Source: an uncultured Pelagibacteraceae bacterium
Lineage (GTDB): Bacteria; Pseudomonadota; Alphaproteobacteria; Pelagibacterales; Pelagibacteraceae
DNA length: 64,000 nucleotides
Direction: 5' to 3'
NCBI GenBank assembly: GCA_902590915.1
Contig: CACIYQ010000003.1
Coordinates: 1-64,000, forward strand
Numbering within the stretch: position 1 is the first letter of the stretch; the number at the start of each line of letters is the position of its first letter. Of the stretch, positions 26,368-49,265 are shown piece by piece. The position numbers and the translations under genes are program-made. The notes beneath the pieces are model-generated. The model was not told where the DNA came from. It did no database searches and was given only the letters and a program-made list of their open reading frames with translations.

Positions 26368-27128
26368 GGGGTATAAGTACCACCATTTACGTGAAGTGTC
26401 TGTCCATTAATATAACTAGCTTCTTTTTTACAAAGATTAACAATTACCTCAGCAACTTCGTCAGGAGTACCAAATCTTTTCAATACTAGATTAGGGGTTT
26501 GTGGATGGCGCAACCAGTGACCTTTAAGCTTTTTTTCTTTTGAGTCAAAATCCTCAATGAAACCAGGAACTACACAATTACTAGTAATTCCTTTTTCTAA
26601 AAACTCCATACTGATAGCTTTTGTTAACCCAACAAGAGCAGCTTTAGAAGTTACAACATGAGCTCTTTCTTTGGCTCCAATATGTGCAGATAAACCTCCT
26701 ACATTTATAATTCTTCCCCATTTTTGTTTTGTCATATGTCCAATGAGAGCTTGAGCACAAAGAAAGGAAGCATCAACATTTACTGACATCACTTTTTTCC
26801 AGTCTTTATATTTTATCTTTTCAAAATTATCATAAATTCTTAAGCCAGCATTATTGATTAAAATAGATGGAACACCCAATTTCTCTGCTGCAATTTTAAT
26901 TTTTTTAATTGTTTTAATATTGTCAAGATCACCGCTAATAAAATTACTATTTACTTTATATTCTTTGACTAATTTTACAGTTGTCTTTGCATCATTAATG
27001 CTCTTACCACCTGTGTGAATTAAAATATTAAATCCTTGCTCTGCAAGTTTTAATGCGGTCGATCTACCTATTTTTTTGGCACCACCAGTTATAACAACAA
27101 CTTTATTTTTGGTGAATTTTTTATTCAA
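26364..27128 (-). CDS. SDR-family oxidoreductase
   Basis: VVITGGAKKIGRSTALKLAEQG; LINNAG; Ser and downstream T-S-K-A active-site region; GQTLHVNGGTYTP. Confidence 0.88.
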   Translation of the reverse strand: MNKKFTKNKVVVITGGAKKIGRSTALKLAEQGFNILIHTGGKSINDAKTTVKLVKEYKVNSNFISGDLDNIKTIKKIKIAAEKLGVPSILINNAGLRIYDNFEKIKYKDWKKVMSVNVDASFLCAQALIGHMTKQKWGRIINVGGLSAHIGAKERAHVVTSKAALVGLTKAISMEFLEKGITSNCVVPGFIEDFDSKEKKLKGHWLRHPQTPNLVLKRFGTPDEVAEVIVNLCKKEASYINGQTLHVNGGTYTP

Positions 27129-28611
27129 CTGGTTTAGGTTTTAATTTAGAGCGTATTTGACCCCAAAATGGTGTTGATAAACTAATTACAGTCAATACCA
27201 TAAATAAAATAAATACTCCACTGTCAAAGAAGTTCATGAAATTACTCTCATAAATAACCATTGATTGAGTGAAAGTTTCTTCAACCATTTTTCCTAAAAT
27301 TAAACCCATAACAAAAGGAGCAGGTGAAAATCCATTTCTTAAAGCAAAATAACCAATTATTCCAGATATCAACATAACCCATACATCGAAAATAGCTGAA
27401 CTATAAGCGTATGAACCAATTAAAGAAAATATAAATACTGAAGGCCATAGAAATCTTTTAGGAATAAAAGTTACATAAGAGAAAAATCTAGCACCTGCTA
27501 ATCCGATACCCAAAAATGCAAAGTTAGCAAATAGCATAGCTCCAAAAATTGCATAAACCAGATGTGGAGTTTCTGTTATTAGATAAGGACCTGGCCTAAA
27601 ACCATGCATAACTAATGCTGCTAAAATTAAAGCTGTAGTTCCACTTCCAGGTATTCCTAGTGCAAGTGTTGGAACCATAGCTCCTCCTGCAGCCGCATTA
27701 TTTGCAGCCTCTGGTCCAACTATTCCCTCGGCACATCCTGTACCAAATTTTTCAGGTGTTTTTGAAAATCTTTTAGCTTCATTGTATCCCATCATAGCCG
27801 CAACTGTTGAACCCTCTGCTGGTAATATTCCAATAAATGTTCCAAGACCTGAAGATCTTAGTATGGTACCTTTTAAACTTTTTAATTCAGCAAATGTGGG
27901 TAGTCTTAAAGCTCTTGCAGACATTCTTTCAACTGCAGCATTTAAAGTTTTAGATTGTGTTAATAATTCTGACATTGCAAAAAGTCCAATTAGGACTGGT
28001 ACAAATTTAATACCTTCGGTTAATTCCTGAACTCCAAAATCATATCTTTCAACCCCTGTAGCTAGGTGAACTCCAATTGTTGATACGAATACCCCTAAAG
28101 CTCCTGCTACAAGATTTCTTATGGATGATTTTCCACTCATAGCAGCTAACATAGATAACGCAAAAACTGATAAACCAAAATATTCTACTGGTCCAAATTT
28201 TAAAGCTATGTCAGCAAGTAAAGGTGTAGCAAATAAAAATATTACAATTGCAAATATTCCACCTAATACGCTGGAAACTGCTGCTAGACCTAAAGCTCTT
28301 CCAGGCTCACCATTTTTTGCCATTTGATAACCATCTAAAGCAGTAGCAACCGCAGGAGGCGCTCCTGGTGCATTGATAAGTATTGCAGTAATTGATCCAC
28401 CGAAGGTTCCTGCACAATATAATGCAGCCATCATTGATATAGATGCAACAGGATCAAGACTTATCGTAAATGGCATTAACAAAGCAATAGCCATAGGTGA
28501 ACTTAATCCAGGTAAAGCGCCAACTAATACACCAACCAAAACTCCACCAAAAATCAATAAGAGGTTTTGAACCTCCATCAATAATACAAATCCTCTTATT
28601 ACGTCTTCCAT
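27121..28611 (-). CDS. tctA: Tripartite tricarboxylate transporter large permease TctA
   Basis: GVLVGALPGLSSPMAIALLMPFT; YCAGTFGGSITAILINAPGAPPAVATALDGYQMAKNGEPGRALG; GIPGSGTTALILAALVMHG. Confidence 0.97.
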   Translation of the reverse strand: MEDVIRGFVLLMEVQNLLLIFGGVLVGVLVGALPGLSSPMAIALLMPFTISLDPVASISMMAALYCAGTFGGSITAILINAPGAPPAVATALDGYQMAKNGEPGRALGLAAVSSVLGGIFAIVIFLFATPLLADIALKFGPVEYFGLSVFALSMLAAMSGKSSIRNLVAGALGVFVSTIGVHLATGVERYDFGVQELTEGIKFVPVLIGLFAMSELLTQSKTLNAAVERMSARALRLPTFAELKSLKGTILRSSGLGTFIGILPAEGSTVAAMMGYNEAKRFSKTPEKFGTGCAEGIVGPEAANNAAAGGAMVPTLALGIPGSGTTALILAALVMHGFRPGPYLITETPHLVYAIFGAMLFANFAFLGIGLAGARFFSYVTFIPKRFLWPSVFIFSLIGSYAYSSAIFDVWVMLISGIIGYFALRNGFSPAPFVMGLILGKMVEETFTQSMVIYESNFMNFFDSGVFILFMVLTVISLSTPFWGQIRSKLKPKPVE

Positions 28612-28616
28612 AATTT

Positions 28617-29147
28617 TTATTTAAGTAATTCGAGTATTCCAGGGTTAAAATATAATCCTAGCAATTTATTGAATAATAAATAAACAAAACCAGGAAACAC
28701 AACTGAATATATAGCTACTGCTATATAATTTCTTTCTCCCCAAAGAAGAGGTAAGGCTAAACAAGTAATAAACATTGTTACAACTGCACCTAAAAATTCA
28801 GCAAAAGAAACTATTACAAGTAACAGAACTATTGTGAACCAAGTTATTGGTAATGTTCTATCACCTCTATCTTTATCTATTTTTGCTATTTTTGCTGGAG
28901 TAATTTTGAACTCAAAAGGTATAATCGCAACTAGAATAAATAATATTGTAATAAGCATTTTTGGAAATACATCTGCATTTAAAGTATCTCCTAAAATAGC
29001 AGGGGCTTCTGGAAATTTTCCAGCTTCATAGTACATAAATGCCCCGAAAGCGACTAATATGATTGCAAGTACTAAGTCTTTTTTATGAATAAACCCTGCG
29101 CCCAATGTTTTGGGCGCAAAGTCAAAAGTTTTTTTTTCGTCTGACAT
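28617..29147 (-). CDS. tctB: Tripartite tricarboxylate transporter small subunit TctB
   Basis: Four-TM small protein between TctA and TctC; LVLAIILVAFGAFMYYEAGKFPE. Confidence 0.88.
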   Translation of the reverse strand: MSDEKKTFDFAPKTLGAGFIHKKDLVLAIILVAFGAFMYYEAGKFPEAPAILGDTLNADVFPKMLITILFILVAIIPFEFKITPAKIAKIDKDRGDRTLPITWFTIVLLLVIVSFAEFLGAVVTMFITCLALPLLWGERNYIAVAIYSVVFPGFVYLLFNKLLGLYFNPGILELLK

Positions 29148-30136
29148 TAATTAGTTAAACCTAATCCTTTTAATGCCTCAGCAGCTTTTGCATAATTTTC
29201 TTTAAGTTGCTTGTCCCAAACCTCTGTACCAGCTGGGCTAGTTGCAGGGTCTAGAGATGCGCCTTTAAGATAATTTGCGAAAGTGTCATGCTTCATAGCT
29301 TTAACCATACCTTTAGAAAGCGCATCAATTCTGTCTTGAGGCGTTCCTTTTAGCACAGCATATCCTCTTGTAGTCACAACTTTAACTTCGTGACCCATTT
29401 CGTATGAGGTTGGCACTTTTGGATAGTCTGCCATTTTTTTGTCATGTAACAAAAGAATTGCTTTAATTTTTTTGTCTTCAATCAAAGCTGCAGCTTCAGA
29501 TGGGTTTAATAAAGATGCTTCAACTTTACCAGATGCTAAAGCTTGCAAACTTTGAGCTCCAGATCCAAATGAGACAGCTTTAAATGGAACATCAGCAACT
29601 GTCGAATAGTTATACATTCCAATGTGCTCAGTACCACCAATAGATGCTATTGCAGTTATGATCGGTTTTTCTTTTGATCTTTTAATGAACTTTTTAATAG
29701 TACTTAACTCTTTATTTTGAGCATTAACTACGATAAAAGTTGGCTCTTCCATAGCTCTAGCAACACCAACAAGATCATCGATCTTCATGTTAGATTTGCC
29801 TCTAGCCATAGTGTATAAGTGTGACTCTGTTAAAGCCATAATTGTACAACCATCTTTTGGTCTTGTTAAAGTGTAGTTTTGAGCTTTAGCTCCTGATCCA
29901 CCTCTTTTACCTACGATTTGCATATCAGCTTTTAGAGTTCTTCTAGATCTGATAGACATCATTCTGGCAGTTGTATCTGTTCCTCCACCATAAGAAGCAT
30001 GAATCACAACTTGTATTGGATCACACTCTTTAGTAGCAAAAGTTTCAGCAACTACTGATGTACTAGCTATCGATGTGTAAGTAAGAGCGAATAAAGAAAA
30101 AAAAGCAAAAAACTTTTTCAAATTTAGTTTGAACAT
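29147..30136 (-). CDS. tctC: Tripartite tricarboxylate transporter substrate-binding protein TctC (Bug family)
   Basis: Signal peptide; IVIHASYGGGTDTTARMMS; IGGTEH; SFGSGAQSLQALASGKVEAS; start trimmed to MFKLNLKKF behind a GAGAGGG ribosome-binding site. Confidence 0.9.
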   Translation of the reverse strand: MFKLNLKKFFAFFSLFALTYTSIASTSVVAETFATKECDPIQVVIHASYGGGTDTTARMMSIRSRRTLKADMQIVGKRGGSGAKAQNYTLTRPKDGCTIMALTESHLYTMARGKSNMKIDDLVGVARAMEEPTFIVVNAQNKELSTIKKFIKRSKEKPIITAIASIGGTEHIGMYNYSTVADVPFKAVSFGSGAQSLQALASGKVEASLLNPSEAAALIEDKKIKAILLLHDKKMADYPKVPTSYEMGHEVKVVTTRGYAVLKGTPQDRIDALSKGMVKAMKHDTFANYLKGASLDPATSPAGTEVWDKQLKENYAKAAEALKGLGLTN

Positions 30137-30216
30137 AATTTCCCTCTCAGTTAGTTTTATTAAAATTGACAAACGTTAACACATTAATAGAGTTAAGTTC
30201 AATATGTAAAATGTCA

Positions 30217-30231
30217 TTTCATATTATGAAA
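30217..30231. promoter_or_regulatory. Candidate IclR-family operator, site A (perfect 7-1-7 inverted repeat)
   Basis: TTTCATA-T-TATGAAA in the divergent tctC / MmgE-PrpD intergenic region. Confidence 0.55.
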
Positions 30232-30256
30232 CATAATTCATTTATTTAGTTAACTT

Positions 30257-31768
30257 ATGAAAACACATCCAATTAAACTTCAAAAACCGGGAAAAAAAAC
30301 AGTTAAAAAAAATCACCTAGCTTGGCTAATTGCTAAGATGGCTTCTGAAGACTGGAATTTAAACAAAGATGTAATTGAGATGGTTGGCAATAGGATTATT
30401 GACAATGCAGGTGTTGCAGTTGCTGCTTTAAATAGGGAGGCAGTTAAAATTGCTAGAGCACAAGCGATGCAGTTTGAAAATAGAAGTGGTGCGACTTTAA
30501 TTGGATTAAATTCAAAAAAAAAATTTGATTGTCAGTGGGCAGCTTGGGCAAATGCAGTAGCAGTGAGAGAATTAGATTTTCATGACAATATAATGGCTAA
30601 AGAAACTTGCCATCCTGGAGACTGCATACCAACTATTTTAGCAGTAGCGCAGCAAAGAAATTGTAATGGTAAAGATTTAATAAAAGCTATTGCAACAAGT
30701 TATGAAACACAATTAAGGTTATCAATGTCAATTGCTCTTAATCCAAATAAGATTGATCATGTAGGACATTTAGGTCCAGCAATTACTAGTGGAATTGGTA
30801 GACTTTTAAAGTTAGATATAGAAACGATTTATCAAGCGATTCAGTGGAGTGCACACACGTCTATTTTTACAAGACAAGGAAGAAAAGGAAACTTATCTAG
30901 CTGGAAAGCTTATGCTCCTGGGTTAGTTGGTAAAAATGCAATAGATGCAATTGATAGAGCAATCAGAGGTGATAAATCACCAAGTCCAGTTTGGGAGGGT
31001 GATTATGGTATCATTTCAATTTTATTAGAAAAAGAAAACAAAAATATAAAAATTAATCTACCTGAAAAAAATGAATCTAGAAATGGAATTTTAGGAACTT
31101 TTACAAAAGAACATTCAGCAGGTTATCATGGAAATGCTTTAATTGATTTAGCATTTAAGATGAGAAAAAAAATTAAAAATATAAAGCAGATAAAAAAAAT
31201 CAATATTTATTCAAAAAAATATACCCATATTGTGATGGGTAGTGGGAGCAATGATAATGAAAAGTATAGTCCTAAAGCCTCAAGAGAAACTCTTGACCAT
31301 TCAGCAATGTATATTTTTGCAGTTGCTTTGGAAGATGGAGCTTGGCACCACGAAAAAAGTTATTCTAAAAAAAGAAAAAATAAACTTGATACGATTAAAT
31401 TATGGAGAAAAATAAAAACCTTTGAAAGTAAAAGTTGGAATAAAAAGTATTATGATGAACCTGATCCTTTAAAAAAAGCACAAGGAGCAAAAGTAGAAAT
31501 AGAGCTAATGAATGGACTAAAAATAATTGACCAACTAGAATTTGCCAATGCTCATCCAAATGGAAAAACTCCTTTTGGAAGAGATGAATATATTAATAAA
31601 ATGAAAATTTTGACTAAAAATATAATTCATAAACAAGAAGAAAATAGATTTATAAATTTAATTGGTAATCTGGAAAAATTAAAATCAAATGAAATAAAAA
31701 CTTTAAATATAGTCTGCAAAGAAAAACATTTAGACTTCAAAAAAAATAATATAAAAGGTATTTTCTAA
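30257..31768 (+). CDS. MmgE/PrpD family protein (paralogue 2)
   Basis: ANAVAVRELDFHDNIMAKETCHPGDCIPTILAVAQQ; DHVGHLGPAITSGIGRLLKL; EHSAGYHGNALIDLAFKMR. Confidence 0.88.
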   Translation: MKTHPIKLQKPGKKTVKKNHLAWLIAKMASEDWNLNKDVIEMVGNRIIDNAGVAVAALNREAVKIARAQAMQFENRSGATLIGLNSKKKFDCQWAAWANAVAVRELDFHDNIMAKETCHPGDCIPTILAVAQQRNCNGKDLIKAIATSYETQLRLSMSIALNPNKIDHVGHLGPAITSGIGRLLKLDIETIYQAIQWSAHTSIFTRQGRKGNLSSWKAYAPGLVGKNAIDAIDRAIRGDKSPSPVWEGDYGIISILLEKENKNIKINLPEKNESRNGILGTFTKEHSAGYHGNALIDLAFKMRKKIKNIKQIKKINIYSKKYTHIVMGSGSNDNEKYSPKASRETLDHSAMYIFAVALEDGAWHHEKSYSKKRKNKLDTIKLWRKIKTFESKSWNKKYYDEPDPLKKAQGAKVEIELMNGLKIIDQLEFANAHPNGKTPFGRDEYINKMKILTKNIIHKQEENRFINLIGNLEKLKSNEIKTLNIVCKEKHLDFKKNNIKGIF

Positions 31769-33114
31769 TGAAAATCCAGGATGATTTAACAAAATATATT
31801 TCAACAGCTTTAAGTAATAATCTACCTGAAAAAACTAAAATCAAAACACGTTTTCATTTACTAGATGCGATTGTTTCTATACTTACAGGGAGGCTTTTGC
31901 CTCCTGGGCAAAAAGGTTTTAATTTTTCAAAAAATCAAGGCGGAGTACAGGAGGCCACTTTATTAGGTAATAATATTAAAGTTTCGGCAATAAACGCTGC
32001 ATTTTCAAATGGTATGGCTGCTCATGCCAACGAAACTGATGACTCACATACAAAAGGAAGATTTCATCCAGGTTGCGCAATAATTCCAACAACACTGGCA
32101 ATCGCAGAGAAAGAAAATCTTAGCAGTGAGGAAATTTTTAAAGGTATTGCTTTGGGTTATGATGTTGGCGTTAGGTTTACAACAAGCCTTGGATATAAAA
32201 CACCTAAAACTAGTATTTTTGCAACTCACAGTATAGGACCAATTTTTGGAAGTGCAGCTTCTGCTGGTGCGTTATTAAAATTAACTCACGAACAATGCAA
32301 TTATTTGATTTCATATACTGTTCAACAAGCTTCAGGATTAGCATGTTGGAATAGAGATCCTGATCATATTGAGAAAGCATTTGTATTCTCTGGAATGACA
32401 TCAAGAAATGCCATTTATTCAGCATTATTTGCTAAAGATAATTTTACATCTGTGAGAGATCCGATCTTAGGAGAAAGGGGATTTCATGCAGGCTTTGCTC
32501 ACAATGCTAAACCTGAACTGTTAAACGAAAAATTAGGTGAAAATTTTGAAATTGATAATGCTTCATTAAAAAAATGGTCTGTAGGCTCACCAATTCAATC
32601 CATGATGGATGCAATAGAGTATTTACTTCAAAATAATGACTTTAATTACAAAGATATAAAAGAATTAACAGTAGAAATACCAGCTGATCGTTTTCACATT
32701 GTTAATGATAGAGAAATTCCATCTATCAGTGCACAACATTTAATTGCCGTTCATTTAATAAAAAAAACTATGGGATATGAAGAGGCACATGATGAAAAAC
32801 TATTCAACGACTCGGAAGTAGTAAGTTTGAGAAAAAAAATTAAATCTATTTCAAGTGAGGAATTAGCAATTGCTAGACCAGAAAGGCAGTCTAAAATTAC
32901 AATTATCTTAAATAATGATAAAAAACTATTTTACCATGCAAAGTCTGTTCGTGGAACCCCAGATAACCCCATGGAAGAAAAGGATATTATTGCGAAATCA
33001 AAAAGATTGTTTTCAGTTTTTAAAACATCTCAAACCGATGATATTATTGATTTAATTTTACATAAAGAATTTAATGCTAGTGAATTAGTTAAGTTGTGTG
33101 ATCTTAATCTTTGA
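31768..33114 (+). CDS. MmgE/PrpD family protein (paralogue 3)
   Basis: GMAAHANETDDSHTKGRFHPGCAIIPTTLAIAEKE; ATHSIGPIFGSAASAGALL. Confidence 0.88.
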   Translation: MKIQDDLTKYISTALSNNLPEKTKIKTRFHLLDAIVSILTGRLLPPGQKGFNFSKNQGGVQEATLLGNNIKVSAINAAFSNGMAAHANETDDSHTKGRFHPGCAIIPTTLAIAEKENLSSEEIFKGIALGYDVGVRFTTSLGYKTPKTSIFATHSIGPIFGSAASAGALLKLTHEQCNYLISYTVQQASGLACWNRDPDHIEKAFVFSGMTSRNAIYSALFAKDNFTSVRDPILGERGFHAGFAHNAKPELLNEKLGENFEIDNASLKKWSVGSPIQSMMDAIEYLLQNNDFNYKDIKELTVEIPADRFHIVNDREIPSISAQHLIAVHLIKKTMGYEEAHDEKLFNDSEVVSLRKKIKSISSEELAIARPERQSKITIILNNDKKLFYHAKSVRGTPDNPMEEKDIIAKSKRLFSVFKTSQTDDIIDLILHKEFNASELVKLCDLNL

Positions 33115-33119
33115 GATTA

Positions 33120-33872: not shown

Positions 33873-33906
33873 TTAATGAAAACTAATTTATATATTATGA
33901 GTAATT

Positions 33907-34755
33907 ATGAATTTAATTAAAAGTAAAAAAGCTTTATCAGCTGAAATTGTAAATATTGATTTATCAAAAGATTTAAAAGTAGATCAGATTAATTTTATCC
34001 AAAAAGCTTGGGATGAAAATTTAGTTTTGACATTTAAAAATCAAAAATTAAATGATCCACAATTATTAAAATTTAGTAAATACTTTGGAAATTTAGACTT
34101 ACCTGCACCTAATCCATATGGGATAAATTTTTCACCTGAATACCCAGAAATAAACGTAATATCAAATGTTAAAGAAAAAGGAAAACCAATTGGTATTCTT
34201 GGTGATGGCGAGGCCACATGGCATGCTGATATGACCTATAATGAAATTCCGCCAAAAGGTGCAATTTTGTACTCGTTAGAAGTACCAAAAAATCAAGGTG
34301 ATACACACTTTTCTAATATGATTGCTGCTTATGAGGATATGCCTGAGCGCTTAATAAAAAAAATTGATGGTAAAATTTTAATTCATGATGCCTCACATAA
34401 TAGTGCTGGACAATTAAGAAAAGGGTACAAAGAAAATGCTGATCCATCTCTAACGCCAGGAGCAAAACATCCAATTATTTTTAAAGATCCTACTACTCAA
34501 AAAAAATCACTTTTTCTTGGCAGAAGACCACATGCTTATATAGTTGGAATGACTATTGATGAAAGTGAGAGTCTACTAAATGAATTATGGTTACATGCTA
34601 CGCAAGAAAAATATACCTTTACCCATCGATGGCAAAATAACGAAGTGTTGATGTGGAAAAATCTTTTTGTCTTACACAAAAGAGACTCATTTGACCCAAA
34701 TACTAGACGGGTTATGCATAGAACTCAAATAAGTGGAGATATAAGAATTTCTTAG
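33907..34755 (+). CDS. TauD/TfdA-family Fe(II)/2-oxoglutarate-dependent dioxygenase
   Basis: TWHADMTYNEIPPKGAILYSLEVP HxD motif; WKNLFVLHKRDSFDPNTRRVMHRTQ distal His/Arg. Confidence 0.9.
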   Translation: MNLIKSKKALSAEIVNIDLSKDLKVDQINFIQKAWDENLVLTFKNQKLNDPQLLKFSKYFGNLDLPAPNPYGINFSPEYPEINVISNVKEKGKPIGILGDGEATWHADMTYNEIPPKGAILYSLEVPKNQGDTHFSNMIAAYEDMPERLIKKIDGKILIHDASHNSAGQLRKGYKENADPSLTPGAKHPIIFKDPTTQKKSLFLGRRPHAYIVGMTIDESESLLNELWLHATQEKYTFTHRWQNNEVLMWKNLFVLHKRDSFDPNTRRVMHRTQISGDIRIS

Positions 34756-35885
34756 ACCAAAACTTCACCACGCATAAGTGGTCTGAATGTTCTATAAAAA
34801 ATTGCAGATTTTGCAAAGGGCTTTCCTTCTTTACTTTCGATAACAGCTCCCGCTGTCATTATTCCTGATGGATTTCCTGCGCGTAGTTCCATTGGGTTAG
34901 AGTCTTTTCTTTTCACATTATTTGGGATAGTACCCTCAATTGCAGCAGCAACACCAATATTCACTCCGGCAGTACCCATTATTGCTTTATGAGTTTTTTC
35001 CATTGAAAACATTCTAGTTGTAATATCTTGATCTTTAGAATTAATTTTGGTTCCATCCAAACTAACATAATCTTTTGCAGAAGTTACAATTCCAATTCTA
35101 GGTGTGTTCATTGGTGCATCATCTTCCGATTTTGATAAACCAATAATATGTGCAGACTTTCGTCTTATTTTTTGTATTAAATTCATTTTATCAATTTGTG
35201 CATCAAGTACATCTGGTGTTTCTGTACCTTCTAAACCAATATCCTCTGCAAGCAAATATACAAGAGGTGTTGCGGCGTCAATAATACTTACATTAATTTT
35301 GCCAAAATCTTTAATTTCTATTTCATCAATTACATTTCCCGTAGGGAGAAGTTTTCCTGTTCCAGACCCTCCAGGTTCTAAATAATCTAATCTAACTTTG
35401 GATCCAGTTCCATGAACTCCCGCAATCGAATAGTCACCTTCGATTAATGGTTTTCCATCTTTAACATTAAAAGTTGAATGGATGATTTTGTTAGTATTAA
35501 CTTGGTAAATTCTTATTTTATTTTCACCTTCTTTTGGTTTAATTATACCCTCTTGAATTGCATAGGGTCCAACTGCACCTGATAAATTACCACAATTATT
35601 ATTCCATTCTGCAATAGGTTTATCTATAGCAATCTGAATAAAGTTATAGTCAACATCAGCATCATCTCGATCTGATGGACTTATAATAACACACTTAGAA
35701 ACTGATGATACACCACCACCCATTCCATTTAACTGTCTTTTGTTAAAGTCTGGACTTCCAATAACTTTTAAAAACAAATCATTTAACTCTTTTTGATTTG
35801 AGGTAGGTAAATCTTTCTTTTGAAAGAAAACACCTTTACTTGTTCCACCTCGATAATATGTAGCCTTGATCCATCTTTGTGCCAT
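34752..35885 (-). CDS. prpF: PrpF-family protein (2-methylaconitate cis-trans isomerase-like)
   Basis: IKATYYRGGTSKGVFFQKKDLP; NGMGGGVSSVSKCVIISPS; NCGNLSGAVGPYAI; RAGNPSGIM. Confidence 0.9.
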   Translation of the reverse strand: MAQRWIKATYYRGGTSKGVFFQKKDLPTSNQKELNDLFLKVIGSPDFNKRQLNGMGGGVSSVSKCVIISPSDRDDADVDYNFIQIAIDKPIAEWNNNCGNLSGAVGPYAIQEGIIKPKEGENKIRIYQVNTNKIIHSTFNVKDGKPLIEGDYSIAGVHGTGSKVRLDYLEPGGSGTGKLLPTGNVIDEIEIKDFGKINVSIIDAATPLVYLLAEDIGLEGTETPDVLDAQIDKMNLIQKIRRKSAHIIGLSKSEDDAPMNTPRIGIVTSAKDYVSLDGTKINSKDQDITTRMFSMEKTHKAIMGTAGVNIGVAAAIEGTIPNNVKRKDSNPMELRAGNPSGIMTAGAVIESKEGKPFAKSAIFYRTFRPLMRGEVLV

Positions 35886-35890
35886 TAATC

Positions 35891-38518
35891 CTAAGCCTCC
35901 TTATAAGCTGTAGGCAAAATCCCACCATTTTTCCAAAAATTTAACTCTTCTGGAACATCTAATCTAGCATTAAGTGTAACTTCAATAATATCACCTGTTT
36001 GTTTATGTATTTTCATGAGCACTTTTTTATTTTCATTTGTAATATCATTTAACCCTAATAAGCTAAACTGATCTGAACTTTCAATATTTAGCTCATTGAT
36101 ACCTTGTCCATTTTCAAATTCTAAAGGGAGCAATCCCATTCCAATTAAATTTGATCTATGAATTCTTTCAAATCCTTTTGCAACTATTGCTCTTACACCA
36201 ATTAATAATGGTCCTTTAGCGGCTACATCTCTTGACGATCCACATCCATAATTTTCGCCTGCTATAACTATAATTTCTTTTTTCTCTTTTTTATATTGAA
36301 CTGCAGCTTCATAAATTCTCGTTACTTTATTTTCTGGATATTTAATTGTAAGACTTCCTTCCTGATTGGGTACCATTAAATTTCTTAGTCTTAAACTAGC
36401 AAAAGTAGATCTTTCTACAATTTCATGATTGGCTCTTCGAGTTAAATAATTATTAAAATCTTTAGAGTCTAATCCAAGTTTTGTTAAGTAATCCCAAGCT
36501 GCTGTTCCTTTTGTTATAACACTAGAGGGAGAAATATGGTCTGTAGTGACAGAGTCACCAAGTAATACTAGTGGTCGGGCTAGTTCTATATCATTAGTTT
36601 GATTATCTTCTGCATATTTTAAGTATGGAGGTTTTTTTATATAAGTACTATCAGGCCAGTCATAATCTTGAGAATTTGAAACATTTAAATTTTCCCATAA
36701 ACTTCCTCCCTGATACACCTGATCATACTTTTCTCTAAAAGTTTCTGCTTTGTAAAACTCATTTACAATTTTATCCACTTCTATATTTGAAGGCCAAACA
36801 TCCTTCAAAAAAATATTTTGATCATTAGAACTTTTTCCTAAACTGTCACTTAAAAGATTAATTTTGACATTACCTATTATAGAAAACATTACCACTAATG
36901 CAGGGGATGCCAAGTATGAAGCTCTTATATTTGGATGTATTCTCCCTTGGAAATTTCTATTTCCTGAAAGCACTGCAACTGAAAAAATTTTTTCTTTTTC
37001 TATAGTATTTGCTAAGTTTTTGTCTAAAGGTCCTGAGCTGCCGTTACAAGTTGTACATCCAAAACCAACTACATTAAAACCTAATTGATCTAAATATTTT
37101 TGCAAACCAGATTTACTTAAAATCTCTGCTGTAACTTTGCTACCCGGTGCAAAAGATGTTTTTACTTTATTATTTTTTTTAAAACCTAGTTTAACTAATT
37201 TTTTCGCAATCAAACCTGCTGCAATAACATTTTTTGGATTTGCAGTGTTTGTACAGCTTGTTATTGCCGCAATCATTATGTCTGCATCTTTTACTTTGTA
37301 ATCAAGATTAGGTACTTCAAATTCATCCTCCCGTAAATCTTGACTGTAAAGCATGTTTGAGTGAGAATTAATTTCATTTGAAAACTTATTTAAATTAATT
37401 TTATCCTCAGGATTTTTGGGTCCTGACACACAAGGTTCTATTGAGAATAAATCAAGATTTAAAACTCTGTTATAGTCTGGAGTAATATCAGATCTTCGCC
37501 ATAGTTTTTGATGTTTTGAATATTCTTCAACAACTTGAATTTCTTCGTCTGTTCTTCCTGTCATACGCAAATACTCTAAAGTTGAATTGTCAACAGGAAA
37601 TAGGACTGCAGTTGCCCCATACTCTGGTGCCATATTTGAAATAGTTGCTCTATCCCCAACAGTAAGACTTTCAACTCCTTCTCCACAAAATTCAATAAAG
37701 CTTCCAACAACCTTATTTTTTCTTAATAATTTTGTAATATATAAAACTAAGTCTGTTGAAGTTATTCCTTCCTTAAGTTGGTTCTTTAAATTTACCCCAA
37801 CTATCTCTGGCACAGTCATAGGTATTGTTTTTCCAAGCATAGAAATTTCTGCCTCAACTCCACCAACACCCCAACCTAAAACACCTATAGCATTTACCAT
37901 TGGAGTATGACTATCAGTTCCTATGCAAGTATCTGGATGAATAAGATTTAGATCTTTCTTTTTTTCTCTCCATACGACTTTAGATAAATATTCAATATTT
38001 ACCTGATGACAAATACCAACCCCTGGTGGAATTACATTAACTTTATCCAAAAATTTTGAACACCATCTTAAAAAAGAAAATCTCTCAGAATTTCTTTCAT
38101 ACTCTTTTTTTAAGTTTTCAATTTCAGCTTTATCATTTCCAAAATAATCAACCTGCAAAGAATGATCAATAACCAAATCTACAGGTACATCTGGTTGAAT
38201 ATCTTTAGAGTCAATTCCTTTTTTTTGAAGGGCTTCTCTATAGGCAATAAAATCTACCAACATAACTTTACCTAAAATATCATGACTTAAAATTCTATTT
38301 GGAGCAAAATTAATTGCTTCACCTAATCGTTTTTCTAAAATTGATTTTATTTGAGCTTCAGCATTATCATTACGACCCAAAAGATTCTGTCTAATTATAT
38401 TTTCTAACAAAATTCTATAGGTATAAGGTATTTTTTCTATATCCTTAATTTTGCTGATATCTGCAAAATCATATTCTTTATTATCAATAGCAATTTTTTT
38501 GAAACTTTTAAAAATCAT
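35891..38518 (-). CDS. acnD: Aconitase AcnA / Fe-S 2-methylcitrate dehydratase AcnD-type hydratase
   Basis: HPDTCIGTDSHTPMVNAIGVLGWGVGGVEAE; AAITSCTNTANP; GFGCTTCNGSSGPL; GENYGCGSSRDVAAKGP; adjacent prpF favours the AcnD-type role. Confidence 0.8.
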   Translation of the reverse strand: MIFKSFKKIAIDNKEYDFADISKIKDIEKIPYTYRILLENIIRQNLLGRNDNAEAQIKSILEKRLGEAINFAPNRILSHDILGKVMLVDFIAYREALQKKGIDSKDIQPDVPVDLVIDHSLQVDYFGNDKAEIENLKKEYERNSERFSFLRWCSKFLDKVNVIPPGVGICHQVNIEYLSKVVWREKKKDLNLIHPDTCIGTDSHTPMVNAIGVLGWGVGGVEAEISMLGKTIPMTVPEIVGVNLKNQLKEGITSTDLVLYITKLLRKNKVVGSFIEFCGEGVESLTVGDRATISNMAPEYGATAVLFPVDNSTLEYLRMTGRTDEEIQVVEEYSKHQKLWRRSDITPDYNRVLNLDLFSIEPCVSGPKNPEDKINLNKFSNEINSHSNMLYSQDLREDEFEVPNLDYKVKDADIMIAAITSCTNTANPKNVIAAGLIAKKLVKLGFKKNNKVKTSFAPGSKVTAEILSKSGLQKYLDQLGFNVVGFGCTTCNGSSGPLDKNLANTIEKEKIFSVAVLSGNRNFQGRIHPNIRASYLASPALVVMFSIIGNVKINLLSDSLGKSSNDQNIFLKDVWPSNIEVDKIVNEFYKAETFREKYDQVYQGGSLWENLNVSNSQDYDWPDSTYIKKPPYLKYAEDNQTNDIELARPLVLLGDSVTTDHISPSSVITKGTAAWDYLTKLGLDSKDFNNYLTRRANHEIVERSTFASLRLRNLMVPNQEGSLTIKYPENKVTRIYEAAVQYKKEKKEIIVIAGENYGCGSSRDVAAKGPLLIGVRAIVAKGFERIHRSNLIGMGLLPLEFENGQGINELNIESSDQFSLLGLNDITNENKKVLMKIHKQTGDIIEVTLNARLDVPEELNFWKNGGILPTAYKEA

Positions 38519-38601
38519 GGTTTTTATTTAATTTAATACTTTAAAAGATTATATAAAGTATTTTCTATATTTTAAAACATCAGGTTATAACAGTTAAAAA
38601 T

Positions 38602-39663
38602 ATGAATATTAAAAAAAGATATAAAAAAACAGATTTAATCAAGTTTGCATTTAAGGTTCTAAAAAAAGTTGGCTTAAATAACTTAAATTCAAAAACAGTT
38701 GCAAATTTAATAGTGAGAGCAGATGAAAGAGGTGTTTGGTCACACGGGATTGTTAGATTACCAATTTATATAAAAAGGATTGAAAAAAAATCAGCTAAAA
38801 TTAATCCAATACTGAAATTTAAAAAAATAACTAATAATATTTTTCATTTGTCAGGTGATAATGGTCTGGGTTATATAGCCGCCAATGAAGGAATAAAAAA
38901 ATGCGTCTCTCTAGCAAAAAAAAATGGGATTGGTTTGGTAGGAATAAGTGAAAGCAACCATTTTGGAATGGCAGCAAATTATTTAGAAATCGCTGCAAAA
39001 AATAAATGTATTGCTTGGGTATTTACTAACGCATCAAAAGCCTTGCCACCTCATGGAGCGATGGCACCTTTCTTTGGCACAAGTCCTTTTGCATTTGGCT
39101 GTCCTACAAAAAAAATCAATAAACCTTTTATACTTGATATGGCATCTTCTTCTGTTGCGAGAGGAAAGTTAAAATTTGCTGCTCAAAATAATATTAAAAT
39201 ACCTTTTGGGTATGCATTGGATAAATTTGGAAAACCCACGAATGATGGGGCAAAAGCTTTTAAAGGAATCATGTTACCTTTTGGAGGAATGAAAGGTGCT
39301 GGATTATCATGGATGATGGATATAGTAGCTGGAATTTTTACAGGTGCAAATCATAGTGGTAAAGTTAAAAATGCAATTAATGACTTTTCTGGAGCTTCAA
39401 ATGTAGGTCATTTGATGATTTGTCTTAGAACTGATCTATTTCAATCACACACGAACTTTATAAAAAAAATAGAATTTGGAATTAAGGAGGTAAAAAAACT
39501 TAAAAAAGCAAAAGGCTTTAAAAAAATACTACATCCTGGTGAGCCTGAATTTAATAATCAAAATGTAAACTCAAAAAAAGGAATTTTGCTCTCTAAAGAA
39601 ACTATTAAAGAACTAGAGAAATTATCTAAAAAATATGATGTAAGAAGTCCATTTAAAGTTTAG
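38602..39663 (+). CDS. Ldh2/malate-lactate-sulfolactate dehydrogenase family oxidoreductase
   Basis: RADERGVWSHGIVRLP; GIGLVGISESNHFGMAANY; ANASK-PHGA region; MLPFGGMKGAGLSWMMDIVAG. Confidence 0.88.
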   Translation: MNIKKRYKKTDLIKFAFKVLKKVGLNNLNSKTVANLIVRADERGVWSHGIVRLPIYIKRIEKKSAKINPILKFKKITNNIFHLSGDNGLGYIAANEGIKKCVSLAKKNGIGLVGISESNHFGMAANYLEIAAKNKCIAWVFTNASKALPPHGAMAPFFGTSPFAFGCPTKKINKPFILDMASSSVARGKLKFAAQNNIKIPFGYALDKFGKPTNDGAKAFKGIMLPFGGMKGAGLSWMMDIVAGIFTGANHSGKVKNAINDFSGASNVGHLMICLRTDLFQSHTNFIKKIEFGIKEVKKLKKAKGFKKILHPGEPEFNNQNVNSKKGILLSKETIKELEKLSKKYDVRSPFKV

Positions 39664-41122
39664 CAGAGTACTTGCCTGCTATCTTACCAAACACTGCACC
39701 TGAAGTTAAACCACTACCACCTGGATAGTTAAAATAAAAAATACCACCTACCATTTCTCCAGCAGCAAAAAGTCCTTTGATAGGCTTCATGACTTTATTT
39801 AACACTTGGCATTTCTGATTTACTCTTAATCCACCAAAAGTGAAAGTAATTCCACATGTAACTCCATAAGCATAAAAAGGAGCTTTATCTATTTTATTTG
39901 CCCAATTACTTTTGTTAAGTGCTAAACCCTCTGTACATCTTCCATCTTTAATTGTTGGATCATATTTAACTTCTTCTTTAACAGCTTTGTTAAAATCATT
40001 TATAGTTTTTAGAGCTTTCTGCGAATTTATACTTGATATTTTTTTAAGTAACTCTTTAATTGAGTTAGCTCTAACCATCGTAGCAGACTTAACATCATAC
40101 TCTGGATAAAGCATATGTCTCACTTTATGATCAAAAATTTGCCATCCAATTTGATTTGGTTGTTTTATGACTTCTTTTCCAAATTTTGCATAAGTAAAAT
40201 TTCTAAAATCTTCTCCTTCGTCAACAAATCTCTCTCCATTAGCATTTAAAACAATTCCCCATGGATAACTAATTTTTCGATATTTATTACTTATCTTTAA
40301 ATCACTAAACTCAGGTCCATTCATATCGTGAAATACTGCATGGCAACCAGACCAATTTCCATAGGGTGAGGCACCTATTTTTAACGCCATACTTAATCCA
40401 TCACCAGTGTTATGTTTTGTTCCTCTGACTTTTGCCATTTCCCATCCTGGACCAAGATATCTTGTTCTCATTTCAGGACTGGATTCAAAGCCTCCACAAG
40501 CTAAAACTACAGATTTTGCAGTAATCGTCTTTGGTTTATTTTTACTTATAACTTTAACGCCCTTAATAATATTATCTTCATAAATTAAATCAGTTGCAGC
40601 TGTATCATAAAGAATTTCAATTTTATTTTTTTTTATAATCTTAAGCATGGAGTCTATTAGTTTTTCACCTTGACCATTTACCTCTAAAGTCAAGCCTCCC
40701 CAATATCTCATCACACCATTGACTTTGAAAGATTGTCTTCCTTTAATGGGTGTAAATTTTAAACCTTTTTTACTTAACCAATGAATTGTTTCAAAACTTT
40801 TTGATGTTAGGATTTTAGATAATTTTTTATCTGTTTTTCCGTCTGTAACTTTATTCATGTCTCTTAAAAAATCAGCGACACTATATTTTCCATAATCTAT
40901 ACTGTTAGAATTTTTTAAATTTGGTATTACTTTTTTTAAATCTGAAAAGTCATTGTAAGCAAACCTATAAGCACCGTTTGTATATCTGCTGTTTCCACCT
41001 TTTTCTTTAGAGGAGGCTTTCTCCAATACTAAAACTTTTTCTGCACCATTATCTTTTGCAGAGAGAGCAGCAGACAATGCAGCGTTACCTGCTCCAACAA
41101 CAATTACATCATAATTTTTCAC
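39653..41122 (-). CDS. tcuA: FAD-dependent tricarballylate dehydrogenase (TcuA)-like flavoprotein
   Basis: DVIVVGAGNAALSAALSAKDNGAEKVLVLEKA; GGNSRYTNGAYRFAY; CGITFTFGGLRVN; FAAGEMVGGIFYFNYPGGSGL. Confidence 0.82.
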   Translation of the reverse strand: MKNYDVIVVGAGNAALSAALSAKDNGAEKVLVLEKASSKEKGGNSRYTNGAYRFAYNDFSDLKKVIPNLKNSNSIDYGKYSVADFLRDMNKVTDGKTDKKLSKILTSKSFETIHWLSKKGLKFTPIKGRQSFKVNGVMRYWGGLTLEVNGQGEKLIDSMLKIIKKNKIEILYDTAATDLIYEDNIIKGVKVISKNKPKTITAKSVVLACGGFESSPEMRTRYLGPGWEMAKVRGTKHNTGDGLSMALKIGASPYGNWSGCHAVFHDMNGPEFSDLKISNKYRKISYPWGIVLNANGERFVDEGEDFRNFTYAKFGKEVIKQPNQIGWQIFDHKVRHMLYPEYDVKSATMVRANSIKELLKKISSINSQKALKTINDFNKAVKEEVKYDPTIKDGRCTEGLALNKSNWANKIDKAPFYAYGVTCGITFTFGGLRVNQKCQVLNKVMKPIKGLFAAGEMVGGIFYFNYPGGSGLTSGAVFGKIAGKYSAKL

Positions 41123-41159
41123 AATTTTTATTTATATTCTTTTAAAAAAAAAAAAAGAT

Positions 41160-41183
41160 AAATCTTATTTCACAATATAAAAC
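41160..41183. promoter_or_regulatory. Candidate IclR-family operator, site B
   Basis: AAATCTTATTTCACAATATAAAAC upstream of tcuA; 21/24 identical to site C. Confidence 0.55.
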
Positions 41184-41222
41184 AACCTACTTTATTTGAA
41201 ATATAATTAATAATATGAAATG

Positions 41223-41249
41223 TGTTAGCGATTTAATTAATCGCTAACA
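41223..41249 (-). terminator. Hairpin downstream of MmgE/PrpD paralogue 4
   Basis: Perfect 11-bp stem TGTTAGCGATT-TAATT-AATCGCTAACA just past the stop codon. Confidence 0.65.
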
Positions 41250-41262
41250 TAAAAATGTGATT

Positions 41263-42687
41263 TTATTTGGATAAAAGCCTACTCAATTTAGAAATATCTT
41301 TCATTTTTTCTAATTTACTAACAGCTTGAATAATTGCCTTCGCCTTCTTTGTTGGCCATTTTGCAAATTCACAACAACCCATAAACTTATCTGCTACTTC
41401 ATCGTATGTCATAGGTATCATTGGACTTCCTTTACCAAAATCTCCTCTACCTGAAATTTTTTTGCCATTTTTAAGATAAATATCAATAATTGTAGTCATT
41501 TTGTCGTAACCAGCTGCTTCAGCTATTTTATTTTTATAAAAGTTTATTTTTCTAAGCATGTTTTGAACATCCGGTTTGTTAATTCTTTTATCCTGATATT
41601 CTGGAATATATGCTCTTCTCTGAACTAGCAAAATTGCCATAGAATATTCCATACTAAATTTAGCTTGAAACTCATTAGTTGGTCTATGATGAATTAATGC
41701 ATTTTGCATATTATGATTAGTTCCAACATCAACTTTAATTACATCTTGTGGTTTTATATCGTGCTTCAAAATTAATTCTAACATTTTTGTCATTCCGGGA
41801 TGGGTTAATGAACCACAGGGATGGGGTTTAATTGAAACACCAGGTTTTGAAAAAGTCCATGGTCTTCCAAGCTGACCTTTAATAGATTTTAAATTATAAC
41901 CCCCTCCATGAGCTTGAAAAAACCCTCTCGGAGACTCTAAAATTTTATCAGTAGCAGTCCAACCTAAGCCCACAAGATCACAAGCGACAACTCCACTTTC
42001 AGCTGCTCTTCCAGCATGTAAGGGTTTAGTCATTGTACCAAAATTTTCTCTTAACCCTGCGCTCAAAGTTGCAGCCACTGCTAAGGATTGTTGAATTTGA
42101 GAAACATTATAGCCACGGATTTTTGCTGCAGCTGCAGCTGAGGCTAAAGTTCCACATGTGGATGTTGAATGAAAACCATGCTGATAATGTCTTGGAGACA
42201 TTGCTTCAGAAACTTTACATTCTACGTCAACACCTACTAAGTAGGCATTTAAGAACTCTTTTCCACTAATTTTCTTTAACTCTCCCTCTGCATATGCGCT
42301 TGGTAGGCATGGGGCAGTAGGGTGTGTCAATAATCCATAAACTCTATCTTTTTGTACAGCTAATTGAGTATCATCGTAGTCATCAGAATGTATACCTGTT
42401 CCATTTGCTAAGGCAGCAAATCGAGAAGTTACTTTCATTTTAGAGCCAATCACTGTTGCTCTACCTTTTGCAGAGTTTTGTTTTATGTGTTTAAATAAAT
42501 AATCACCAGTCCTTGCTACAGAACCAGATAAAGCTAAACCAAAACCGTCTAGAATATGTTTTTTTGCTAACTCAACAACATTTTTTGGAATTGAATTAAA
42601 CTTATTCTTCTTAACAAATTGAGCAACGTATTTAGTTAAATTTTTTCCTTTATCAGACTGAATATTTGGCGTGTAAGCTTTTCCCAT
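41263..42687 (-). CDS. MmgE/PrpD family protein (paralogue 4)
   Basis: GTGIHSDDYDDTQLAVQKDRVYGLLTHPTAPCLPSAYAEGE; YQHGFHSTSTCGTLASAAAAAK; KPHPCGSLTHPGMTKMLEL. Confidence 0.9.
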   Translation of the reverse strand: MGKAYTPNIQSDKGKNLTKYVAQFVKKNKFNSIPKNVVELAKKHILDGFGLALSGSVARTGDYLFKHIKQNSAKGRATVIGSKMKVTSRFAALANGTGIHSDDYDDTQLAVQKDRVYGLLTHPTAPCLPSAYAEGELKKISGKEFLNAYLVGVDVECKVSEAMSPRHYQHGFHSTSTCGTLASAAAAAKIRGYNVSQIQQSLAVAATLSAGLRENFGTMTKPLHAGRAAESGVVACDLVGLGWTATDKILESPRGFFQAHGGGYNLKSIKGQLGRPWTFSKPGVSIKPHPCGSLTHPGMTKMLELILKHDIKPQDVIKVDVGTNHNMQNALIHHRPTNEFQAKFSMEYSMAILLVQRRAYIPEYQDKRINKPDVQNMLRKINFYKNKIAEAAGYDKMTTIIDIYLKNGKKISGRGDFGKGSPMIPMTYDEVADKFMGCCEFAKWPTKKAKAIIQAVSKLEKMKDISKLSRLLSK

Positions 42688-42759
42688 AATTGATTTCCTT
42701 TGCTGTTATTCAACAGTTTCAACAAAAATTTATAGATTGTCAACAAATTTTATATTATA

Positions 42760-42783
42760 AAATCTTGTTTCACATTGTAAAAC
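42760..42783. promoter_or_regulatory. Candidate IclR-family operator, site C
   Basis: AAATCTTGTTTCACATTGTAAAAC; near-palindrome GTTTCACA-T-TGTAAAAC, ends 2 nt before the iclR-like ATG. Confidence 0.6.
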
Positions 42784-42785
42784 TT

Positions 42786-43454
42786 ATGAGTAATATAAAA
42801 GTTCTAGATAAAACTTTTCAGATATTAAATTCTTTTGATGATGCTAATAAAAGTATTTCTCTAAAAGATTTAACAATTATTACCAAACTTAATAAATCAA
42901 CAATATTAAGAATTTGTAATTCATTAATTAAATATAATTTTTTAATTAAAAATGAAATTAATGGAAGCTACCGTCTTGGTCCAGGTAGTTGGAAATTAGG
43001 ATCAATATACAACTCAAATTTCAGGTCTGGTGAGGAAATAAGAGAAATTTTGGGTAAAATTTGTGCAACGACTGGTCAATCTGCAGGCTATTGGGTCAAG
43101 GCTGGTACAAAAAAAGTTTGTTTATATAGAGTGAATTCTAAATCTGAATTAAATCATTATGTAGTTGAGGGTACAACTTTTGAATTAAAATCAGCAACAG
43201 GAAAAGTTTTAAGTGCGTTTACTGGTGGAAATGACGATTTAAAAAATGCTATTGAAAAAAAAGGGTACATTTACACTAAAGGTGAAAGATTAGATAATAT
43301 AGCAAGTGTTGCAATTCCAATTTTTGATAATCAAAATAATTTTAAAGGTACTTTAAGTATATCAGGCTGGAAACAATTTTTTACTAGCAAAACAGTATCA
43401 AGTTTCTATAAAACCTTATTGAAATATAAAGACCAAATTAAAGTATTATTATAA
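42786..43454 (+). CDS. IclR-family transcriptional regulator
   Basis: N-terminal wHTH LKDLTIITKLNKSTILRICNSLIKYNFL; NGSYRLGPGSWKLGSIY; VASVAIPIFD-type C-terminal domain; start trimmed to MSNIKV. Confidence 0.9.
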   Translation: MSNIKVLDKTFQILNSFDDANKSISLKDLTIITKLNKSTILRICNSLIKYNFLIKNEINGSYRLGPGSWKLGSIYNSNFRSGEEIREILGKICATTGQSAGYWVKAGTKKVCLYRVNSKSELNHYVVEGTTFELKSATGKVLSAFTGGNDDLKNAIEKKGYIYTKGERLDNIASVAIPIFDNQNNFKGTLSISGWKQFFTSKTVSSFYKTLLKYKDQIKVLL

Positions 43455-43459
43455 CTCAA

Positions 43460-44302
43460 GTGAATAAAAAAACTTCAAAACTTAAAAAATTTTTAAATGA
43501 TAAAAATTCATATAAGGTTCCATCATGTCATGATCCTTTGACAGCTAAATTAATTGAAAAAAAAGGTTTTAAAGTTTCATTCATTGGTGGTTTCGCTCTT
43601 TCCTCTGCTAGTCTTGGTTATCCCGACGCAAGTATTATTACCCAGAAAGAATTGGTAGATGCAACAAGATCAATATGCAATCAGACAAAGAACCCGATAA
43701 TTGTTGATGCAGATACAGGATTTGGCGGTTTAGCTAATGTATATAAAACTATTAAAGATTTAGAGCAGGCAGGTGCATCAGCTGTTATTTTAGAAGATCA
43801 AACTTTTCCAAAAAGATGCGCACTTACTAAAAAAGTAAAATTATTAGATTTAATGAAATCTGAAAAAAGAATTAAAACAGCAATTAAAGCTTCAAAAGAG
43901 AATAATAATATTATGATATTTGCTAGAACTGATGCTTTAAGTGTGGGCTCTATTAAAGAGTCTATAAAAAGAGCTAAAATGTTTAAAAAATTAGGTGCAC
44001 ATGCCGTATTTATAACTGGAATTAATAGTCTTAGAGAAATAAAATTAATTAAACAAAATTTAAAAAAAATTCCATTAATAATTAATATTACTCAAGATAT
44101 AAAATTTAATATATCAGATATTAAGAAAAGTGATTTCAAGTTCATTCTCTATTCTCAGCAACTCTTGAATAGCTATATCGATACTGTCAATGCAACATTA
44201 GAATTAATTAAAAATAATAAAAATCTTAAATTTAAAAACAAAGCATCAGATACTTTATCTTTGTTAAATTTTAAAAAGTATTTATCAATTGAAAATAACT
44301 GA
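43460..44302 (+). CDS. Isocitrate lyase/PEP mutase superfamily protein (divergent; methylisocitrate lyase-like)
   Basis: PSCHDPLTAKLIEKKGFKVSFIGGFALSSASLGYPDAS; IVDADTGFGG; ILEDQTFPKRCALTKK; IFARTDAL. Confidence 0.85.
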   Translation: MNKKTSKLKKFLNDKNSYKVPSCHDPLTAKLIEKKGFKVSFIGGFALSSASLGYPDASIITQKELVDATRSICNQTKNPIIVDADTGFGGLANVYKTIKDLEQAGASAVILEDQTFPKRCALTKKVKLLDLMKSEKRIKTAIKASKENNNIMIFARTDALSVGSIKESIKRAKMFKKLGAHAVFITGINSLREIKLIKQNLKKIPLIINITQDIKFNISDIKKSDFKFILYSQQLLNSYIDTVNATLELIKNNKNLKFKNKASDTLSLLNFKKYLSIENN

Positions 44303-44304
44303 AA

Positions 44305-45363
44305 ATGAAAGAATATTATTTAGCCTTTAGACGTAGTTTAAAAAGTATTATTATTGGCATTATTGGTGGATATATTGGTACGTTAATTAATTTACCATTA
44401 CCTTGGTTGTTGGGGGCTCTATTATTAAACCTCTTTGTATCCTTTAGTAGTTACAAAGTTACTTTTGATAAAAAAATTTTTTTACCCGTCCTTTTGATTA
44501 TAGGTGTAATTCTTGCAGGTTCCTTCAACATAACTTTACTTTATAAAATCCACTTGTGGATTTACTCTTCAATAGCAATGATTTTATGCACAATAGCAGG
44601 AACTATCGCAGCATCTTTTTATTTTTATAAGATATGTAAATTTAACAAGTTGGTTTCTATTTTGGCAGCTCTACCTGGAGCATTTGTAGTTATAGCTGGA
44701 GCAATTAATGATATCACTACAGATAAAAAAAAAAGTGGGCAAGTTGTAATTCCTCAAGCCACTAGAGTCTTGTTTATTGTTTTATTTTTACCCTTTATTT
44801 TTGTCACTCAGATTGGATATCAAGAAATAGATTCTTTTGGCAATACCCCAACATTTGATTTGAGATACTTTGGGGAATTAATATTTTTAATTATAGTATC
44901 TCTAATAGGTACAAAAGTCTTAGAAAAGTTCAGAATACCATCAGCACCAATACTTGCAGCAATGATTGTTGCAGGTTTTTTTTATACATTTGAGTTTACT
45001 ACAGCAAAGTTTCCTGATGTATTTATAAATGTTGCCTTTGTATTTTTAGGATCTGCAATTGGCTGTAGACTAAGTGGATTAGCTCCAAAAGAGATATTAT
45101 TTTACTCTTTTCATGGAGCAATTATGTCAGCAATTTTGTTGGCAATTGCAGCTTTCTTTGCATACTTACTAAAAATATTCTTTGGCTTTGATTTTATGTC
45201 AGCTTTTTTAAGTTTTGCACCAGGTGGATTACATGAAATGGTTGTAATAAGTGTTGCATACAATATAGATCCACTTTTTGTAAGCTATCATCATTTTTTG
45301 AGAATTTTTTTCATAATATTTTCTATCCCATTTATTTTAAAAATAATGAAGAAAAAAAATTAA
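44305..45363 (+). CDS. AbrB-family (ammonia monooxygenase-type) integral membrane protein
   Basis: Two-repeat TM architecture; GGYIGTLINLPLPWLLGALLL; FLSFAPGGLHEMVVISVA. Confidence 0.8.
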   Translation: MKEYYLAFRRSLKSIIIGIIGGYIGTLINLPLPWLLGALLLNLFVSFSSYKVTFDKKIFLPVLLIIGVILAGSFNITLLYKIHLWIYSSIAMILCTIAGTIAASFYFYKICKFNKLVSILAALPGAFVVIAGAINDITTDKKKSGQVVIPQATRVLFIVLFLPFIFVTQIGYQEIDSFGNTPTFDLRYFGELIFLIIVSLIGTKVLEKFRIPSAPILAAMIVAGFFYTFEFTTAKFPDVFINVAFVFLGSAIGCRLSGLAPKEILFYSFHGAIMSAILLAIAAFFAYLLKIFFGFDFMSAFLSFAPGGLHEMVVISVAYNIDPLFVSYHHFLRIFFIIFSIPFILKIMKKKN

Positions 45364-49074: not shown

Positions 49075-49103
49075 TTGACATTAATCAATATATGTTAGAT
49101 TAT
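49075..49103 (+). promoter_or_regulatory. Predicted promoter of the gcv operon
   Basis: TTGACA (49075-49080), 17-nt spacer, GATTAT (49098-49103). Confidence 0.5.
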
Positions 49104-49109
49104 TTCACT

Positions 49110-49265
49110 ACGGGAGAGATCACGATTTTATTGTGACACCGAAGGAGCAACCACCCAGGAAACTCTCAGGTAAAAGGACCGTAACATATTAACTCTGGAA
49201 AGAGATTAGATTCTCGCCGAAGGAGTAAAACTCTCAGGCAAATATACAGATGGGTACAAAGAGTT
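49110..49265 (+). ncRNA. Tandem glycine riboswitch
   Basis: Aptamer 1: CGGGAGAGATCACG...ACACCGAAGGAGCAACCACCC...AACTCTCAGGTAAAAGGACCG; aptamer 2: CTCTGGAAAGAGATTAG...CGCCGAAGGAGTAAAACTCTCAGGCAAA...; directly upstream of gcvT. Confidence 0.95.

Follow-up and report, generated by a model that had tools for sequence, protein, structure and literature searches.

The window, a stretch of 64,000 nucleotides from an uncultured bacterium whose relatives are named as Pelagibacteraceae (SAR11), bears a tripartite tricarboxylate transporter (tctC-tctB-tctA, with the names tctB and tctA taken from reading of the translations), a flavoprotein gene tcuA, several MmgE/PrpD family genes and an IclR-family regulator gene followed by isocitrate lyase/PEP-mutase-like and AbrB-like genes (Table 1). 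The TcuA protein scored 556.6 bits against a cut-off of 369 with NF006130 and below the cut-off with TIGR02485, and PrpD4 has IDS-epimerase and cis-aconitate decarboxylase as its nearest solved structures. The island also includes, further away, an aconitase gene, prpF and other MmgE/PrpD genes. The term "tricarboxylate island" is used here as a working name only, because the substrates of the MmgE/PrpD and lyase-like proteins are not assignable by sequence and TcuA matches one equivalog of two. The genes iclR, icl (lyase-like) and abrB (AbrB-like) probably form one operon, and their order was kept wherever contigs were long enough.

Table 1. Genes, putative operators and other features of the tricarboxylate island, with positions in the window
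Feature	Position	Strand	Basis or remark
tctC-tctB-tctA, tripartite tricarboxylate transporter, putative targets of third operator	27121..30136	-	ORFs, synteny
Putative second box at tctC, tctC strand ATTTTACATATTGAACT	30196..30212	-	20 bp between centres; left half-box strong
Putative third primary operator, ATTTCATATTATGAAAC	30216..30232	.	between divergent tctC (-) and prpD1 (+); centre -88 from tctC ATG, -33 from prpD1
prpD1-prpD2, putative targets of third operator	30257..33114	+	divergent from tctC
tcuA, tricarballylate dehydrogenase family flavoprotein, putative target	39653..41122	-	NF006130 TcuA
Putative primary operator of tcuA, gene strand GTTTTATATTGTGAAAT	41167..41183	-	centre -53 from tcuA GTG
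Putative second half-box of tcuA, gene strand ATTTCAAAT	41194..41202	-	half-site offset scan over tcuA loci; 19 bp upstream of primary operator
Terminator-like hairpin between prpD4 and tcuA	41223..41249	-	11 pairs, none in shuffles
prpD4, MmgE/PrpD family protein, putative target	41263..42687	-	Pfam MmgE_PrpD_N and _C
Putative second box at iclR/prpD4, perfect palindrome ATTTTATATTATAAAAT	42747..42763	.	20 bp centre to centre from primary iclR site
Sigma-70-like prpD4 promoter, TTTACA-16 nt-TATAAT	42754..42781	-	11/12 consensus matches
Putative primary operator at iclR/prpD4, GTTTCACATTGTAAAAC	42767..42783	+	centre -11 from iclR ATG, -88 from prpD4 ATG
iclR, 222-aa IclR-family regulator	42786..43454	+	Pfam, predicted fold
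Isocitrate lyase/PEP-mutase-like gene and AbrB-family membrane protein	43460..45363	+	downstream of iclR

A compact version of the island was observed in one related locus (L027:15-11357), in the order tctCBA-sdr-prpD0-tauE-ldh2 followed by tcuA, prpD4 on the opposite strand and iclR-icl, and this order may be nearer the ancestral layout. Two structured RNAs were also located in the window, namely a glycine riboswitch aptamer upstream of gcvT (49101-49191, Rfam RF00504, 66.2 bits) and the SAR11_0636 sRNA (5471-5560, Rfam RF01827, 92.5 bits).

The regulator carries an N-terminal winged helix-turn-helix domain (HTH_IclR, PF09339, 26 bits versus a cut-off of 22) and an effector-binding domain (IclR_C, PF01614, 45 bits versus a cut-off of 24, aligned only over positions 109-172), and its gene gives the sole IclR_C match in the host assembly, which is 81% complete. 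An AlphaFold2 model with a mean pLDDT of 82 contains the HTH helices, and a Foldseek search with it retrieved IclR-family crystal structures with a best E of 5e-17, including TtgV (2xrn, 2xro), BlcR (3mq0), PcaR and the T. maritima IclR. The TM scores of 0.48-0.63 for full-length matches, together with a large rmsd, suggest that the placement of the domains relative to each other in the model is unreliable. Judged by profile matches and predicted fold, the protein is a genuine member of the IclR family. The best NCBIfam match of its N-terminal two thirds is BhcR (NF045644), the regulator of the beta-hydroxyaspartate cycle, whose equivalog was rejected at 54 bits against a cut-off of 350; the island genes differ from that system as well. 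Equivalog assignments to KdgR or E. coli IclR were likewise rejected, being below the cut-offs.

The original prediction had proposed that a 24-nt palindromic element shared by two island promoters is the operator of the adjacent IclR protein. Both 24-mers lie exactly where they had been placed (41160-41183 and 42760-42783), differ at 3 of 24 positions and contain the near-palindrome described, and the second stops 2 nt short of the iclR ATG at 42786. The element is inverted relative to tcuA; tcuA and prpD4 are both on the minus strand. In first-order Markov shuffles of the two AT-rich intergenic regions the best 24-mer match averaged 17/24 and reached at least 21/24 in 4 of 1000 cases, and when the tctC region was added, the best three-way 17-mer match was equalled by 2 of 200 shuffles. 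In DNA so rich in AT, the 24-mer pair by itself is of only modest significance, and conclusions drawn from the window alone would be premature.

Comparison with related genomes reduced the element to its core, the palindrome consensus GTTTCAYAWTRTGAAAC at 41167-41183 and 42767-42783. Conservation covers 17 bp only, so that the palindrome of the original element was retained while its length was 7 nt too great; the AAATCTT flank common to both 24-mers is not conserved beyond the closest relatives. From 22 distinct sites a symmetrised consensus, GTTTCACAATGTGAAAC, was derived, from which single sites deviate at some positions. Two further features had been missed by the earlier analysis, which found two sites correctly: a third site at tctC (30216-30232) and the tandem arrangement of the boxes. 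The absence of the motif upstream of orthologues had been named as an outcome that would refute an operator, and the palindrome was found to be kept beside iclR, tcuA and tctC orthologues alike.

Directly before iclR, the palindrome is present in 24/24 orthologous loci from four genera, down to an IclR identity of 59% in two genomes of another genus. A second box at an offset of 20-21 is kept in these 24 loci, with one base off in locus L031. The prpD4 promoter is the best sigma-70-like match of the region, with its -35 element within the primary operator and its -10 element within the second box; covering of both elements by the boxes argues for repression. The gap between operator and iclR ATG is two bases in the window (42784-42786) and one to three in relatives, which leaves no space outside the operator for a Shine-Dalgarno sequence. 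The iclR mRNA may be leaderless, or the operator may sit in the ribosome-binding region.

At tcuA, a site of the same consensus was found in 20/20 loci, several with rearranged neighbours and one, L018, with a degenerate form (ATTTCATACTGTGCAAC). In locus L027 the top-scoring site is 101 nt from tcuA and a weaker one occupies the usual place. In HIMB114 and the loci L028, L029 and L032, several kilobases separate tcuA from prpD4 and the site still precedes tcuA, indicating that the site travels with tcuA rather than with prpD4. Most loci also carry the upstream half-box as RTTTCAWAA. The hairpin between prpD4 and tcuA is consistent with a separate tcuA promoter, and a search of the tcuA upstream region for a promoter overlapping the site gave no good consensus match.

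The palindrome before tctC was found in 18/18 loci. For the second site, an offset of +20 was the best position over the tctC loci, and taken singly it scores 3.1 bits in the window; in most loci its half-box reads RTTTTRCAT. The divergent tctC/prpD1 arrangement is also present in HIMB114.

The specificity of the motif was evaluated across 197 Pelagibacteraceae genomes. Of these, 14 contain the exact iclR-type site GTTTCACRWTGYAAAAC, always adjoining iclR, and they are exactly the 14 with an iclR orthologue; none of the other 183 carries it, and the reversed pattern gave no match at all. This co-occurrence is partly linkage, as the site travels with the gene, and the conservation counts given above refer to phylogenetically related loci. 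Exact matches to RTTTYAYAWTRTRAAAY number four in the host assembly, all within the island, versus an expectation of 0.03 for the shuffled window. HIMB114, a single contig with 99% completeness, holds six, five of which cluster in one 25-kb island stretch and the sixth of which lies inside an ORF. When each promoter set was scored with a matrix derived from the two remaining sets, all 24, 20 and 18 loci exceeded the 99% level of their own shuffles, with the iclR hold-out being not fully independent because the choice of training sites was seeded with the iclR sequence. All sampled genomes with a close tctC orthologue (12/12) also carry iclR, and a negative control in the form of a SAR11 tctC promoter without the regulator was therefore not found among them.

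A genome-wide regulon was considered and rejected, as counts with 1-3 mismatches are near those of the reversed-pattern control. Since this holds already at one mismatch, weaker sites elsewhere cannot be called; the near-matches checked outside the island fall within ORFs. The best candidate at the divergent acnA/ldh2 promoter of the window, at 3.2 bits, was not accepted, and without a convincing site there, not every island gene is covered. HIMB114 has an extra exact site at its ldh2 promoter (L023:2567-2583; G022:C1:204944-204960), between ldh2 and a divergent gene run of transporter, abh, PrpF and aconitase. The island with its regulator (window 27121-45363) is patchily distributed, with close orthologues of iclR in 14/197 and of tctC in 12/197 Pelagibacteraceae genomes.

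Among known IclR-family operators, Suvorova and Gelfand (2021, PMC8222616) described in group 1 a GTT-11-AAC subgroup with the consensus GTTYCRYW3RYGRAAC, as well as tandem sites 18-22 nt apart for 94 of 181 orthologous groups. The SAR11 sites share the 17-bp palindromic arrangement with the W3 centre, and their spacings of 20-21 (iclR), 19 (tcuA, half-box) and 20 (tctC) agree with the published 18-22 nt. Both the group 1 operators and the SAR11 sites adjoin the regulator gene and local transport or catabolic genes. Operators of the KdgR type (group 2, TGRAACAN1-2TGTTYCA) have the same half-box letters in the opposite orientation; the half-boxes run GTTTCA...TGAAAC in all SAR11 sites and thus fall outside group 2. 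By their sequence, the SAR11 sites are putative members of group 1, differing from published members in the orthologue group and the carboxylate island. The name Pelagibacter has no occurrence in the main text of that article (PMC8222616), and no described SAR11 IclR regulon was found in the open-access literature, the scope of the search. E. coli IclR, which controls the glyoxylate bypass, shares with the SAR11 regulator the family and an isocitrate-lyase-like gene downstream, but the SAR11 gene is no aceA, belonging instead to the methylisocitrate lyase/PEP-mutase superfamily, and the E. coli operator, given as TGGAAATNATTTCCA in PMC8222616, differs from the SAR11 sites.

Distant alphaproteobacterial IclR homologues carry, ahead of their own genes, pairs of palindromes with a spacing of about 20 bp, for example in loci L130 and L137. 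A divergent SAR11 IclR paralogue with 30% identity was observed in two loci (L049, genome G192, and L122), followed by an AbrB-like gene; its start is immediately preceded by two TTCTATT-AATAGAA palindromes with a spacing of about 22 bp. In L049 the sequence TTCTATTSAATAGAA occurs twice, some 30-90 bases ahead of position 1501, where the match begins. These palindromes are a candidate for a second tandem IclR operator with a different sequence. The IclR-family repressors TtgV and BlcR reportedly bind two neighbouring boxes as tetramers. Their two-box arrangement resembles that of the SAR11 sites, and their structures match the predicted fold of the SAR11 protein; the operator sequences and the genes differ.

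With the conservation at orthologues, the co-occurrence with the regulator gene and the agreement with the published family consensus and tandem spacing, the reading of the palindromes as the operator of the adjacent IclR protein is supported, and a probability of about 0.9 is assigned to it. An IclR dimer would recognise the 17-bp palindrome and a second dimer the box 19-21 bp, or two helical turns, away, so that a tetramer would occupy about 37 bp. Three promoter regions would thereby come under IclR, at iclR/prpD4, where one operator would serve both directions, at tcuA and at tctC/prpD1, and the controlled genes would comprise its own operon (iclR, isocitrate-lyase-like, AbrB-like), prpD4, tcuA, tctCBA and prpD1-prpD2. 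The action of IclR is probably repression with autoregulation. At prpD4, bound IclR would block RNA polymerase because the -35 and -10 elements both lie under the two boxes, with promoter positions being those of consensus matches. Binding of the imported carboxylate, or of an intermediate, to the C-terminal domain would lift the repression.

The IclR family also includes activators, of the PcaR/PobR type, and the protein could bind the same sites as an activator, or act in a dual manner, activating tctC and tcuA while repressing itself and prpD4. The positions of the tctC and tcuA sites, with centres 88 and 53 nt ahead of the respective start codons, would suit activation, as would the lack of a good promoter match overlapping the tcuA site, but the boxes covering the region's best promoter at prpD4 and the site abutting the iclR start codon are awkward for it, and activation is considered unlikely. 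That the palindromes serve another transcription factor, with IclR as a bystander, is conceivable insofar as the operator was assigned by proximity and family consensus; it is rendered very improbable by the exact co-occurrence with the orthologue and absence from the 183 genomes lacking it, by the match to an IclR-specific consensus and tandem spacing, and by the comparable tandem palindromes of distant IclR homologues. Scarcely to be expected is a block of conserved divergent promoter elements at iclR/prpD4 that contains no operator and in which ATTTTATAWTATAAAAT is only a -10 region. The second box does double as the prpD4 -10, and the AT-only palindrome ATTTTATAWTATAAAAT is weak evidence by itself, yet tcuA and tctC have the G/C-containing primary palindrome as well, accompanied there by a second box of other sequence at the 19-21 bp spacing. 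A chance resemblance, or a promoter duplicated recently within AT-rich intergenic DNA, for which the modest pair-only significance (4/1000 shuffles) could speak, is refuted by separate conservation at three promoters in several genera with diverged flanks, along with the held-out scans and genome-wide specificity.

The IclR operator favoured here is thus of a known kind, and the sequence comparisons extend it from two promoters to a putative island regulon with three. The locus almost certainly represents a local control circuit of an ordinary type that had not been described before. More tentatively, at slightly less than an even chance, it may constitute an undescribed carboxylate-responsive regulon of SAR11, in which an IclR orthologue group specific to the clade, and represented by the sole IclR_C protein of the host assembly, would switch the whole patchy tricarboxylate island through two-box operators at three places (in HIMB114, at four promoter regions), with its own message starting in or beside the operator.

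SAR11 bacteria have streamlined genomes, in which local regulators are generally regarded as few. A conserved switch specific to the island would mean that uptake and use of tricarboxylate-type compounds are inducible rather than constitutive in the lineages bearing it. HIMB114, with its five island sites, would be a suitable test case, and with a concrete regulon of transporter, TcuA, MmgE/PrpD enzymes and lyase, the inducer would name the substrate.
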